Shown here: piece by piece, positions 52,197 to 64,000 of the stretch
Layout of the letters: each line of letters starts with the position of its first letter
Position numbering within the stretch: the stretch's first letter is position 1
Origin: Bradyrhizobium sp. ISRA464
Lineage (GTDB): Bacteria; Pseudomonadota; Alphaproteobacteria; Rhizobiales; Xanthobacteraceae
Assembly (NCBI RefSeq): GCF_029910095.1
Contig: NZ_CP094526.1
Coordinates: 930,001 to 994,000 of the forward strand
Reading direction: 5' to 3'
DNA: 64,000 nt
Translations under genes and position numbers: made by a program
Notes under the pieces: generated by a model
Databases searched by the model: none
What the model saw: the letters and a program-made list of their open reading frames with translations, nothing else
What the model was told of the DNA's origin: nothing

Positions 52197-52831
52197 TGCG
52201 GAACATGCAGCGGACATCTCGGATCCGGCTCTGCCTGCGCCACTTTGTGCGCGACGGACGCGGGCTCGCGGCCGTCGAATTCGCGATGGTGTTGCCGTTG
52301 ATGCTGGTGATGCTCTTCGGCACCGTCGAGTTTTCGTCCGGCGTCGCCGTGGATCGCAAGGTGACGCTGATCGCGCGAACGCTGTCTGATTTGACCTCGC
52401 AGTCGACCTCGGTAGCGGACAGCGACCTCAGCAACTTCTTCAGTGCCAGCATCGGCATCATGACGCCCTATGATCCGACGCTCACGAAGGGCACATTGTC
52501 GGAGGTCTACATCGACTCCTCGAAGATCGCGCGGATACAATGGAGCGTGGCTGGGATCCTGACGAGCGGCTCTACGGTGGCGACGTTGACGACCTCGACC
52601 CGCAAGGTGGGTGACGTCGTGACCAGTATTGTTCCGCCCGCGCTGCTGATTCCGGGGACCTATCTGATCTTCAGCGAGGTGAGCTACACATACAAGCCGA
52701 CGGTCGGCTACGTGATGGCACCGGCCGGCATCACGCTCAGCGACGTCGCCTATACCCGTCCCCGGCAGTCGCTGTGCGTATTCTATACGGCAAGCTCCGG
52801 AACCGCGCAGACGACTTGTCCGACCACTTAG
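52196..52831 (+). CDS. tadF: TadE/TadF-family pseudopilin
   Basis: 211 residues with leader RHFVRDGRGL followed by AAVEFAMVLPLMLVMLFGTVEF and a periplasmic domain ending in a Cys pair (SLCVFYTASSGTAQTTC). It overlaps the stop of the tadE-like gene by one base. The TAG stop at 52829-52831 coincides with the first bases of a palindromic repeat (TTAGAGCG), so the repeat may have set the present C-terminus. Confidence 0.85.
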   Translation: MRNMQRTSRIRLCLRHFVRDGRGLAAVEFAMVLPLMLVMLFGTVEFSSGVAVDRKVTLIARTLSDLTSQSTSVADSDLSNFFSASIGIMTPYDPTLTKGTLSEVYIDSSKIARIQWSVAGILTSGSTVATLTTSTRKVGDVVTSIVPPALLIPGTYLIFSEVSYTYKPTVGYVMAPAGITLSDVAYTRPRQSLCVFYTASSGTAQTTCPTT

Positions 52832-52934
52832 AGCGTTTTCGAGCGAAGTGGACACCGGTTCGCGTGAAGAAAACGCGTCAAAACTAGAATCTAGGGCTTC
52901 GGTTCTGATTCTATCAGAACCGAAAATGCTCTAG
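52828..52934. repeat. Palindromic element carrying the tadF stop codon and IS701 target
   Basis: About 107 bases: TTAGAGCGTTTTCGAGCGAAG..., GAAGAAAACGCGT, then a 12-base hairpin TTCGGTTCTGAT/ATCAGAACCGAA (52898-52909, 52913-52924) and a terminal AAAATGCTCTAG. Bases 52832-52884 match 63236-63288 inside ureD with three differences in 53. Its terminal CTAG is duplicated around the adjoining insertion sequence. Confidence 0.85.
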
Positions 52935-54356
52935 CATTACAGTTGTAATTTTTGCTTGAGATGCGCTTTGCGCGCGTTGGCTTGATGAGCCCTGCGCCAG
53001 GATGACCATGCGAGGATGTGGGCATGCGGGATGCGCCGCTGGGCGAGCTTCATGGCGATGCGGCGGATTTCCTGGATCGACCAGCGGATCAAGAACGATG
53101 CTTCGGTCGGGGCCGCGGTCGCGTTTTTTTAAGCAATGCTCCGGTGTTGGCCCGATGACGGATGACGGCCATCGTGGCGAAGGCAAGCATGACCAGTGAG
53201 ACATGGCGATGCCAGCCATGCCAGGAGCGGGTTTCGTTGTGATCAAGACCGAGCTCGTTCTTGGCGGTTTCGAAGCTGTCTTCGATGGCCCAGCGATGGC
53301 CTTCCACGGATACCAGCTTCTGCATGGACGTGCCCTTGGGGCACCATGTGGAGAAGAAGGCTAAGCTGTTGTCGGCAATATTGCGGCGGATCAGAAGACC
53401 TCGGGTCCATTCCCCGGCAAGGTCGTCGTTGTATTCGCCGGCGTCGAGATCGGCCAGCTCAAGATAGGCCCAGTCGTGCCAGCGCGGACCTTTGGTTCCT
53501 TCGCCGGACGGCAGGCGGCGCCAGGCCTTCTTGGGAAGGCTCTGCGCGATCGTAGAGGCAGTGCCGGCGACAGGCTGCTGCTTGCCCCAGGAATAGAACA
53601 CGTGATTGGAAGCAACCCCCAGAACAAGCCTTTGCCCGCCTTGCGCAGCAGGGTTTCGATCGCTCCCGTGCCATACACGCTGTCCGCTGCTACGAACGAG
53701 AACGGCACCTTTGCGGCGATCGCGCGAGCGATCATTTGATGCGCGATCCGGGGCTTCGTCGCAAAGCTCACATCGCTCGGGACATGTGCGGCCTTCAGGC
53801 GAGCGGGTTCGTCCGTCCATTCCTTTGGCAGGTAGAGCGCCCGATCGATGAAGGCATGGCCATGCCGCGACACATAGGAGGCAAACACTCCGATCTGGCA
53901 ATTGGTGATCTTGCCCGCCGAGCCAGTGTACTGGCGCGCGACCCCACACGAGGCCTTGCCCTGTTTCAAAAAGCCGGTCTCATCGATGACCAGAACCGCG
54001 TCCTCGTCACCCAGCGTTTCCAGCGCGTACTCACGTACAATATCGCGCAGCGCGTCGGCATCCCACTGCCCCCGACCCAGAATCGCCTGCTGGCGCCACG
54101 GGCCTGGATCGCCAGCCGCTTCCGCCCGCATCCAACCCGTCTTGCGCGGCTCGTTGCCCAACAGTCCGTCGAGAAATTGCCCCGCCGAGGCCGCGACCCG
54201 CTCTTGCGTAAACAGCGGACGGATGCGTTGCTTGGCATCTCGCAACGACGAAGCCCACAGCGTCAGCGTATCCTCAACCGACGCGCCACCAATCATCAGA
54301 TCCCGAATCATGGTCGCCCATAGATTCAGAACCTTCAGGAAGATGCAACTGTAATG
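52935..54356 (-). mobile_element. IS701-family insertion sequence (decayed)
   Basis: 1422 bases bounded by 11-base perfect terminal inverted repeats (CATTACAGTTG, 52935-52945; CAACTGTAATG, 54346-54356) and flanked by CTAG on both sides (52931-52934 and 54357-54360), which fits the four-base YTAR-type duplication of the IS701 family. One minus-strand transposase reading fills it; it is interrupted by two shifts of frame. Confidence 0.85.
52937..54311 (-). pseudogene. IS701-family DDE transposase, frameshifted
   Basis: Reading from ATG 54311 gives MIRDLMIGGASVED and the first catalytic Asp in LVIDETGFLKQG and second in FVAADSVYGTG. A -1 shift near 53624-53627 moves to the frame with LGVASNHVFYSW and the catalytic Glu segment WAIEDSFETAKNELG. 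A second -1 shift at an A7 run (53124-53130 on plus as T7) is needed to reach the family C-terminus (SFLIRWSIQEIRRIA, HAHILAWSSWRRAHQ), whose TAA lies in the terminal repeat. The first break looks like a true deletion; the second might be slippage. Confidence 0.85.
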
Positions 54357-62187: not shown

Positions 62188-62883
62188 ATGCTGAAGGTCG
62201 ACAACATCAACCTCTACTACGGCGCGGCGCAGGCCTTGCGCGGCGTCTCGCTCACCGCCGAGCCCGGCAAGGTGACGTGCGTGCTTGGGCGCAACGGCGT
62301 CGGCAAGACCTCGCTGTTGCGCGCCATGGTCGGGCAGTATCCGATCGCCTCGGGCGCGATCAATTTCGACGGCAAGGACATCACCGCGCTGAAGCCCTAT
62401 GAGCGGGCGCGGCGCGGCATCGGCTTCGTGCCGCAGGGCCGCGAGATCTTTCCGCTGCTGACCGTGGAAGAGAACCTGAGGACCGGCTTCGGTCCGCTGA
62501 AGCGCGAGGACCGCAACATCCCCGACGACGTGTTCTCGCTGTTTCCGGTGCTGGAGACCATGCTCGGCCGCCGCGGCGGCGACCTCTCCGGCGGCCAGCA
62601 GCAGCAACTCGCGATCGGCCGTGCGCTGGTGATGCGGCCAAAGCTTCTGCTGCTCGACGAGCCGACCGAGGGCATCCAGCCCTCGATCATCAAGGATATC
62701 GGCCGCGCCATCTCCTATCTGCGCAACCTCGGCAACATCGCGATCGTGCTGGTCGAACAATATCTCGACTTTGCCTGCGAACTCGGCGACAGTTTTGCCG
62801 TGATGGACCGGGGTGCGGTGAAATATGCCTGCGACCGCGCGAACCTCGATCCCGCCGAGATCAGCCGCCAGATGGCGCTGTAA
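62188..62883 (+). CDS. urtE: Urea ABC transporter ATP-binding protein UrtE
   Basis: A 231-residue ABC ATPase (LivF type): Walker A LGRNGVGKTSLLR, GFVPQGREIFPLLTVEENL, signature LSGGQQQQLAIGRAL, Walker B LLLLDEPTEGIQPS and switch LVEQYLDFA. It starts three bases after urtD and its TAA overlaps the ureD ATG (62883), coupling urea import to urease assembly. Confidence 0.95.
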   Translation: MLKVDNINLYYGAAQALRGVSLTAEPGKVTCVLGRNGVGKTSLLRAMVGQYPIASGAINFDGKDITALKPYERARRGIGFVPQGREIFPLLTVEENLRTGFGPLKREDRNIPDDVFSLFPVLETMLGRRGGDLSGGQQQQLAIGRALVMRPKLLLLDEPTEGIQPSIIKDIGRAISYLRNLGNIAIVLVEQYLDFACELGDSFAVMDRGAVKYACDRANLDPAEISRQMAL

Positions 62884-63866
62884 TGCAATCTGACGCCGCA
62901 ATGAGCGGCACGGGGATTAAGGGAGCGTCGGGGCGGATGCGGAGCGAGCTCGCGGGAGCGGCTTCAGCGACATTTGCGGCGAACCGCGCCCAGGGCGCGG
63001 TCAGGTTCGGCGTGCACCTCAAGGACGGCGTCACCCGGCGCGGCGACCTGCACGAGTCGGGCTCGCTGCGCGTCCGCTTCCCGTCACCGGAGGACGAGGG
63101 TCTGTCGGCCATGTTCGTCAACACCGCCGGCGGCATTGCCGGTGGCGACCGCTTCGACATCGCGATCTCGGCCGGCGAGGGCGCCCGCGTGACGCTGACC
63201 ACGGCGGCCGCCGAAAAGGTCTATCGCGCATCGGCAGCGTTTTCGAGCGAAGTGGGTACCGGTTCGCGTGAAGAAAACGCGTCCAAACAAAATGAGAGCA
63301 TGGTGCGATCCAACCGGATCGCACCATGCTCGATCGCAGCGGCGCGGCTCGACATCGCGCTGAAGGCCGACACAGGTGCGCATCTGGCCTGGCTGCCACA
63401 GGAGACCATCCTGTTCGACCGCGCCCATATTCACCGCCGCTTCGACATCGACCTAGCCGACGATGCCTCGCTCTTGCTCTGCGAGATCGTGGTGTTCGGC
63501 CGCTCCGCGATGGGCGAGACCATGCGCCATGGCGAATTTGTCGACCGCTGGCGGATGCGCCGCGGCGGCCGGCTGGTGTTTGCCGAGACGGTCCGTCTCG
63601 ACGGCGAGATCGGCGAGAAGCTCGCCAGGCCCGCGATCGCGGGTGGCGGCACGGCGATCGGCACCGCGCTGATCGTACCGGGCGATGCGGCGCTGGTCGA
63701 GCGCATCCGCGAGGCATCGGACAACTTCGGCGGCGAGGTCGGCATCTCCGCCTGGAATGGCTTTGCAATGGCGCGCTTCTGTGCCCAAGATGCCGCCCGG
63801 CTCCGCGCCGACATGATGACGGTGCTGAGCCGCGCCTCCGCCGTGCCGCTGCCGCGGCTCAACTGA
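62883..63866 (+). CDS. ureD: Urease accessory protein UreD with an in-frame inserted repeat
   Basis: 327 residues; a UreD/UreH chaperone needed to load nickel into urease. Family segments are GAVRFGVHLKDGVTR, FVNTAGGIAGGDRFD, LTTAAAEKVYR, LAWLPQETILFDRA and SLLLCEIVVFGRSAMGE. Between KVYRAS and AARLDIAL lie about 34 extra residues (118-151: SSEVGTGSREENASKQNES...) encoded by a palindromic element at 63236-63335; without them the protein would be about 293 residues, near usual length. The frame stays open. Start ATG overlaps the urtE stop. Confidence 0.93.
   Translation: MQSDAAMSGTGIKGASGRMRSELAGAASATFAANRAQGAVRFGVHLKDGVTRRGDLHESGSLRVRFPSPEDEGLSAMFVNTAGGIAGGDRFDIAISAGEGARVTLTTAAAEKVYRASAAFSSEVGTGSREENASKQNESMVRSNRIAPCSIAAARLDIALKADTGAHLAWLPQETILFDRAHIHRRFDIDLADDASLLLCEIVVFGRSAMGETMRHGEFVDRWRMRRGGRLVFAETVRLDGEIGEKLARPAIAGGGTAIGTALIVPGDAALVERIREASDNFGGEVGISAWNGFAMARFCAQDAARLRADMMTVLSRASAVPLPRLN
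63234..63340. repeat. Palindromic element inserted in frame within ureD
   Basis: The left half (63236-63288) matches 52832-52884 at 50 of 53 positions. The right half is a 16-base perfect hairpin (GAGCATGGTGCGATCC, 63296-63311, with 63316-63331; AACC loop). GCAGC occurs at both borders (63234-63238 and 63336-63340), consistent with a five-base target duplication and a net insertion of 102 bases, exactly 34 codons. Confidence 0.85.
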
Positions 63867-63890: not shown

Positions 63891-64000
63891 ATGAATTTGT
63901 CTCCCCGCGAAAAGGATAAGCTCCTGGTCTCGATGGCGGCCATGGTGGCGCGCCGCCGGCTCGAGCGCGGCGTCAAGCTGAACCATCCCGAGGCGGTCGC
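63891..64000 (+). CDS. ureA: Urease gamma subunit UreA (5' end only)
   Basis: The first 36 residues are present: [20 protein letters not shown], then [16 protein letters not shown], which matches the start of UreA, a roughly 100-residue subunit of urease. It follows ureD by 24 bases and runs off the end of the window. Urease hydrolyses the urea brought in by UrtABCDE. Confidence 0.95.

Follow-up and report, generated by a model that had tools for sequence, protein, structure and literature searches.

In Rickettsia, palindromic repeats (RPEs) lie in frame within genes of known function, as the parts of two reports drawn on here describe (PMC10969869, PMC3733652), and in-frame palindromic repeats have also been described in Coxiella (PMC5896051). 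In several free-living species, intragenic REPs of the GTAG and CGTC types are small palindromes inside open reading frames; REP ends often supply stop codons to neighbouring open reading frames, and Bradyrhizobium has CGTC REPs, according to the relevant parts of PMC3733652. Bru-RS1 and Bru-RS2 are described as palindromic elements of 103 and 106 bp (PMC10800456), and Br-REP1 and Br-REP2 of B. japonicum as dispersed palindromes in 3′-UTRs (PMC5082802).

The repeat that we describe here lies within ureD, in a window of 64,000 nucleotides from Bradyrhizobium sp. ISRA464. Like the RPEs as described in those parts of the reports, it is in frame and has insert-free homologues. Unlike them, it belongs to a family that is found in a gene in only 1 of 83 scored copies, as against nearly half of the RPEs in open reading frames according to PMC10969869, and the ureD hairpin evolves by compensation within the gene, the RPEs being likened to it by description. 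REPs are described as units of 20–40 bp with a terminal tag and, in the CGTC type, stems of 8–9 bp, whereas the ureD element comprises about 106 bp and two modules; it has GCGTC after the left stem, a possible likeness to CGTC REPs that is again drawn by description (PMC3733652). The size and layout of the ureD-type repeat fit those given for Bru-RS1/2 (PMC10800456), while the published consensus of Br-REP1 and Br-REP2, as given in the part of PMC5082802 considered, differs from it in sequence. We found no published report of the element in Bradyrhizobium or in UreD in literature that consisted mostly of titles and abstract openings. In-frame palindromic repeats are thus already known; the novelty lies in hairpins that evolve by compensatory change although the insert is translated. 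The locus extends the phenomenon of palindromic repeats inside protein genes to a free-living rhizobium and to a gene whose product, urease, can be measured.

The account that we propose, and in which as a whole we have fairly high confidence, is that of a repeat in ureD that forms a tolerated loop and whose hairpins are kept by compensation. An ancestor of a Bradyrhizobium subclade would have received in its ureD, at a site like CCGGCAGCG, a palindromic repeat of about 106 bp whose family is found across the order; orientation and frame would be those in which the element most often lacks stops. The 33 new residues would form a flexible surface loop between β-strands that is tolerated rather than used, with only the openness of the frame mattering. 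The two stem-loops would largely have been kept through compensatory changes, in the mRNA or in the DNA, with selection or else palindrome-repairing mutation as the cause, and the hairpin half or the entire block would since have been lost or exchanged several times.

Results and Discussion

The block inside ureD

The features of the locus are collected in Table 1. The ABC-transporter gene that precedes ureD presumably has a urea-transporter role. The genes ureB, C, E, F and G lie downstream, past the end of the window (read on locus L246), and Pfam shows ureA, B, C, E, F and G to have open frames of nearly full length. For ureD itself, an alignment of 19 UreD proteins from relatives makes a start at 62937 likelier than one at 62883.

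Table 1. Coordinates of the features discussed (positions in the window).
Feature	Position	Strand	Basis or remark
Full-length intergenic copy	52829-52936	+	Top covariance-model match in the genome, E 2.7e-29
ABC-transporter ATPase gene, immediately 5′ of ureD	62188-62883	+	Pfam ABC_tran
ureD (urease accessory protein) ORF	62883-63866	+	Pfam PF01774 UreD, E 9.4e-53
Left GCAGC word	63234-63238	+	Part of likely ancestral target CCGGCAGCG
Left module	63236-63295	+	51 genome copies, fold, conservation over 7 carriers
Net in-frame insertion, 33 codons	63240-63338	+	One register; edges ambiguous by a few bases
Right module, translated hairpin	63296-63331	+	Fold, compensatory pairs
Right GCAGC word	63336-63340	+	102 bp from the left word; offset by 3 bp from the register of the L114 duplication
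ureA (urease gamma), 5′ part	63891-64000	+	Read on locus L246

The original prediction, made from the window alone, had described a block of about 102 bases between conserved UreD segments that keeps the frame open and adds about 34 residues. Place and open frame were correct, but comparison of protein and DNA with insert-free relatives gives a net in-frame gain of 99 bp, or 33 residues, at the junction between KVYRA and AARLDI; because the gain is 99 bp, the reading frame survived. Exactly three differences separate the 53 bases from 63236 and the stretch 52832-52884, as had been noted (BLAST, 94% over 53 bp, E 8e-17). In the left module, a stem joins 63237-63244 with 63273-63280, with an inner stem GCGAA/TTCGC and a linker after it, and the right module is the perfect 16-bp stem that had been predicted, closed by a 4-nt loop. 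Folding energies are -28.9 kcal/mol for 63297-63332 (z -9.5) and -55.1 kcal/mol for the 99 nt of 63237-63335 (z -9.1).

The GCAGC words that had been read as flanks both exist, but since they lie 102 bp apart and the net gain is 99 bp, this repeat of the window is partly coincidental. The undivided site CCGGCAGCG is read in two of 78 insert-free rows, L119 (the same as L254, genome G036) and L125 (G147), where the empty alleles are GCACCGGCAGCGGCGGCACGG and GCGCCGGCAGCGGCGGCGCGG, respectively. In L114, a filled allele, CCGGCAGCG stands on either side of the block, at a distance of 99 bp. Because the element often starts with AGCGTTTTC, the duplication at ureD may be 5 to 9 bp, and a repeat of this length is seen there in one carrier (L114). 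Around 26 other copies there is no direct-repeat signal of a target duplication (p 0.54; second test p 0.72), and an inverted-repeat signal in the flanks of copies is marginal (p 0.038).

An AlphaFold2 model of the 309-residue UreD (mean pLDDT 75.8) has a predicted fold that resembles UreD/UreH of solved complexes (8hcn_D, TM 0.81 by target; 3sf5; 8hc1). In this model residues 100-131 of the insert have a pLDDT below 50 and are flanked by strands 94-97 and 136-144, and the insert is accordingly predicted to be a disordered loop between two β-strands of UreD.

A repeat family of the genome and the order

In the 8.46-Mb genome to which the window belongs, a search with a 42-bp pattern taken from the left half gave 51 matches at up to 3 mismatches, ureD included, and so revealed a dispersed repeat. 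The reversed pattern gave 0 matches; this control rules out an independent low-complexity match, and with its 51 near copies the sequence belongs to a true repeat family. A covariance model was built from 32 other copies, with 150 of 2353 first-look candidates scored and 130 listed at E<=0.1. It finds 96 matches at E<1e-3 in the same genome, with the ureD copy at E 5e-15. In the consensus the left stem-loop has conserved sequence and the right hairpin varies between copies.

Model matches at E<=0.01 occur in 34 of 61 genomes sampled over the order, a number that includes the genome studied and one congener, and the core AAGTGG..ACCGGTT was found again in several of the distant matches that were read. 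Below threshold, Rfam matched the intergenic copy and two distant copies to the Brucella sRNAs CI27 and CI408; it gave no such match at the ureD copy. The family may resemble the RIME1/Bru-RS palindromic repeats of Hyphomicrobiales in sequence, and it is like RIME1 in size and layout. Traits of this type that are present are a length of about 100–106 bp, two stem-loop modules, dispersal, and a location mostly outside genes.

Carriers among related genomes

Alignment of UreD with its relatives shows the block in 5 of 80 loci on genome contigs, with 33, 32 or 21 extra residues, and its absence from the other 75. Because empty alleles are found in close relatives, the objection that all relatives carry the block fails; together with the genome copies, the insert-free relatives bear out the central claim of the original prediction, that of a dispersed palindromic element inserted into ureD with the frame kept. 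The 120 scored UreD proteins comprise 6 with the full block, 4 with a hairpin-less form of 21 residues and 110 with neither (the set being the best 120 matches of an insert-bearing query together with the window, P0109 unscored). UreD is found at E<=1e-60 in 259 of 265 genomes of the genus, where, among the matches listed, 7 align over the whole query. A DNA search of 257 genomes that is independent of frame has the same 7 aligning across the block, and no frame-broken carrier, among the matches listed.

A ureD tree was built from 85 rows and 809 columns, with the insert columns left out. The carriers, 7 in number, all fall within its starred set of 30 rows, in which they are scattered: 6 changes are needed, and a single carrier clade is rejected (AU p 2.4e-6). 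The UreD protein tree, which is weakly supported, needs 7. Since one carrier clade is rejected, the distribution requires more than a single vertical insertion, and the best explanation is that the hairpin half or the whole block was lost or exchanged several times.

Was the block then spread or lost by short-tract recombination between species? We give this a substantial chance, somewhat below even. The scatter of the carriers speaks for it, as does the closest pair of a filled and an empty allele, G090 and G036, which differ at 52 of 834 sites: 15 of 75 sites differ just upstream of the block, against 0 of 54 and 1 of 75 immediately downstream, a pattern that is compatible with local recombination. 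Against it, the same pair has a second divergent patch farther downstream, away from the block (16 of 150 sites), and flank divergence between carriers is on average not reduced compared with elsewhere, which argues against a recent single sweep.

The hairpins and the encoded peptide

Over 7 orthologous inserts, 96.6% of 208 cells are paired; the 7 unpaired cells are three in L115 and one each in L113, L114, L116 and L117, and L117 is without the right hairpin. Changes on both sides with pairing kept occur at 5 of 32 pairs (6 cells). Such a count of compensated pairs was reached in 0 of 500 shuffles, a kind of test that relatedness can inflate according to the tool's own warning, and slid-partner controls reached at most 1. 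A fifth covariation measure, which takes in further pair types, is weaker, with 24 of 500 shuffles as high.

The codons tell of the peptide. In the insert, 3 variable codons are synonymous and 15 nonsynonymous, compared with 118 and 63 in the remaining ureD (one-sided Fisher p 8e-5), the hairpin's share of this count depending partly on gap placement in the 32-residue forms; the left module alone has 2 and 7 (p 0.013). The insert has thus lost the codon-type constraint of the rest of the gene. Moreover, EENASKQNE of the window has EEKRVQTNE as its counterpart in the nearest homologue, P0001. Gain and loss of one A in two A runs reproduces the P0001 stretch exactly, with two other substitutions in the region, and we infer from this protein a probable compensated +1/-1 frameshift pair. 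Compensated pairs, nonsynonymous excess and frameshift pair together indicate that the fold lasted while the peptide drifted, the hairpins being largely kept in the sequences compared.

Accordingly, the term "domesticated" that had been applied to the block does not hold for a protein feature: the block is predicted to be disordered and its amino acids drift, while it is the nucleic-acid fold that is conserved. The statement that the element modifies a urease chaperone is right in the literal sense of 33 extra residues in UreD, but as a claim of a functional effect it goes further than the sequences suggest.

The left core is conserved beyond its pairs. Variable columns number 7 of 45 there, against 155 of 268 third positions of ureD (p 9e-8), and are about as rare as in codon positions one and two of ureD (72 of 535); 16 of 59 columns vary once the linker is counted in. 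Four-fold sites of the left module do not differ significantly from those elsewhere (2 of 7 versus 78 of 130 variable, p 0.11).

Related species hold full, hairpin-less and empty alleles, a natural series that lets one ask: is the insert kept for its RNA structure, by palindrome repair, or is it merely tolerated? The hairpins could be a selected RNA element on the polycistronic transcript, acting in mRNA stability, processing, or the expression of ureD versus ureABC. The mobile repeat would then be in dual use, its codons selected for hairpin structure in the urt/ure transcript and not for amino acids. We regard both the selected element and the dual use of its codons as tentative, at clearly less than an even chance. 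The compensatory pairs, the very stable fold and a conservation of the left core far above that of third positions favour such selection, as do unpaired left-module positions that are invariant among carriers as well, and that palindrome repair alone would not keep. On the other hand, a block that is absent from 75 of 80 relatives, and whose hairpin half is missing in 4 of 10 carrier proteins, is dispensable. If true, this reading would make the block a regulatory RNA element inside an open reading frame that evolves by paired changes.

Comparably doubtful is an upkeep without any selection, through template switching between the arms of the quasi-palindrome and gene conversion of the left core from genomic copies. 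Two copies of the same genome, L003 and L005, have a 42-bp core identical to that of ureD, which leaves conversion possible, and L113 and L114 show one paired double change despite only 26 differences over 809 sites of ureD. Against this, a linker and hairpin of the ureD type have persisted although the genomic consensus differs, and any conversion would need to be limited to about 45 bp.

The linker also bears on the number of insertions. Its non-consensus form is common to 6 of the 7 carriers, with up to three base changes, L116 having diverged, and the hairpin is of the GCGATCC type in every carrier that has one (6 of 7). Because linker and hairpin type are shared, one origin is favoured. 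Several independent insertions of the same subfamily at one hotspot would account for the scatter of the carriers on the tree, and subfamily copies do exist elsewhere in several genomes, but the same site, the same frame and the shared linker and hairpins make this improbable. That the insert is a selected new segment of the UreD protein, for example a binding loop, is very unlikely: 10 of the 120 scored proteins keep it, in full or in shortened form, and its frame is open in the carriers found, but the nonsynonymous excess, the probable frameshift pair of P0001, the predicted disorder, and the scattered presence and shortened forms all speak against it. The tolerated loop with compensated hairpins is thus the reading that we keep.

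Copies in genes and outside

For a copy to count as lying in a gene, the spanning frame had also to be the best coding frame on both flanks. Scored in this way were 83 copies of the genome (51 of the 53 first loci and 32 of 40 further ones), 13 of the 96 model matches being outside the scoring (L145, L150, eight of L176-L215 and three others). The copy in ureD is the only one in a gene among these 83; the test also passes ureD of another species (L113), which served as positive control. Hand-picked from the listed part of 396 matches, a further 20 copies that have long open frames and belong to four relatives gave 0 in-gene cases. The generalization that the element can enter genes without breaking them is therefore weak, given 1 case in 83 copies and 0 in 20 in relatives.

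Long frames that span other copies were rejected as genes, being non-coding by codon score, and the spanning frame of 1029 aa at L014 has no Pfam match. L006, L014 and L151 each have one coding frame on either side that is interrupted by a stop within the element; L006 and L014 were rejected as in-gene copies, since each lies between two different genes. As judged by a codon-score heuristic, 17 of 51 copies supply the upstream gene with its stop codon, usually TAG, from their left end, and in this the element resembles GTAG REPs as described in the part of PMC3733652 considered. The frame used by ureD is open in 36 of 51 copies and the other five frames in 17, 5, 3, 19 and 23; that ureD uses the most open frame of the element helps to explain the survival of its reading frame.

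Some individual copies are of note. L019, L023, L025 and L027, all of the same genome, have by eye a left module without the right hairpin, like the 21-residue form in ureD. In the window (52829-54311), the right end (CTAG) of the intergenic copy adjoins a minus-strand ORF that looks transposase-like by eye, and the 400-bp flank of copy L030 matches that of the intergenic copy at 399 of 400 positions; because this flank is common to both, the CTAG end of the repeat seems to be occupied by an insertion sequence in two places. In three carrier genomes (L002, L237 and L238), an apparently orthologous intergenic copy with a hairpin of the ureD type (GCATGATACGATCC) precedes the same downstream sequence, and could serve as a non-coding control for the ureD insert. 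Finally, L162 (7044579-7047620 of the genome studied) has a copy directly 5′ of a glutathionylspermidine-synthase-like gene, near the start codon.
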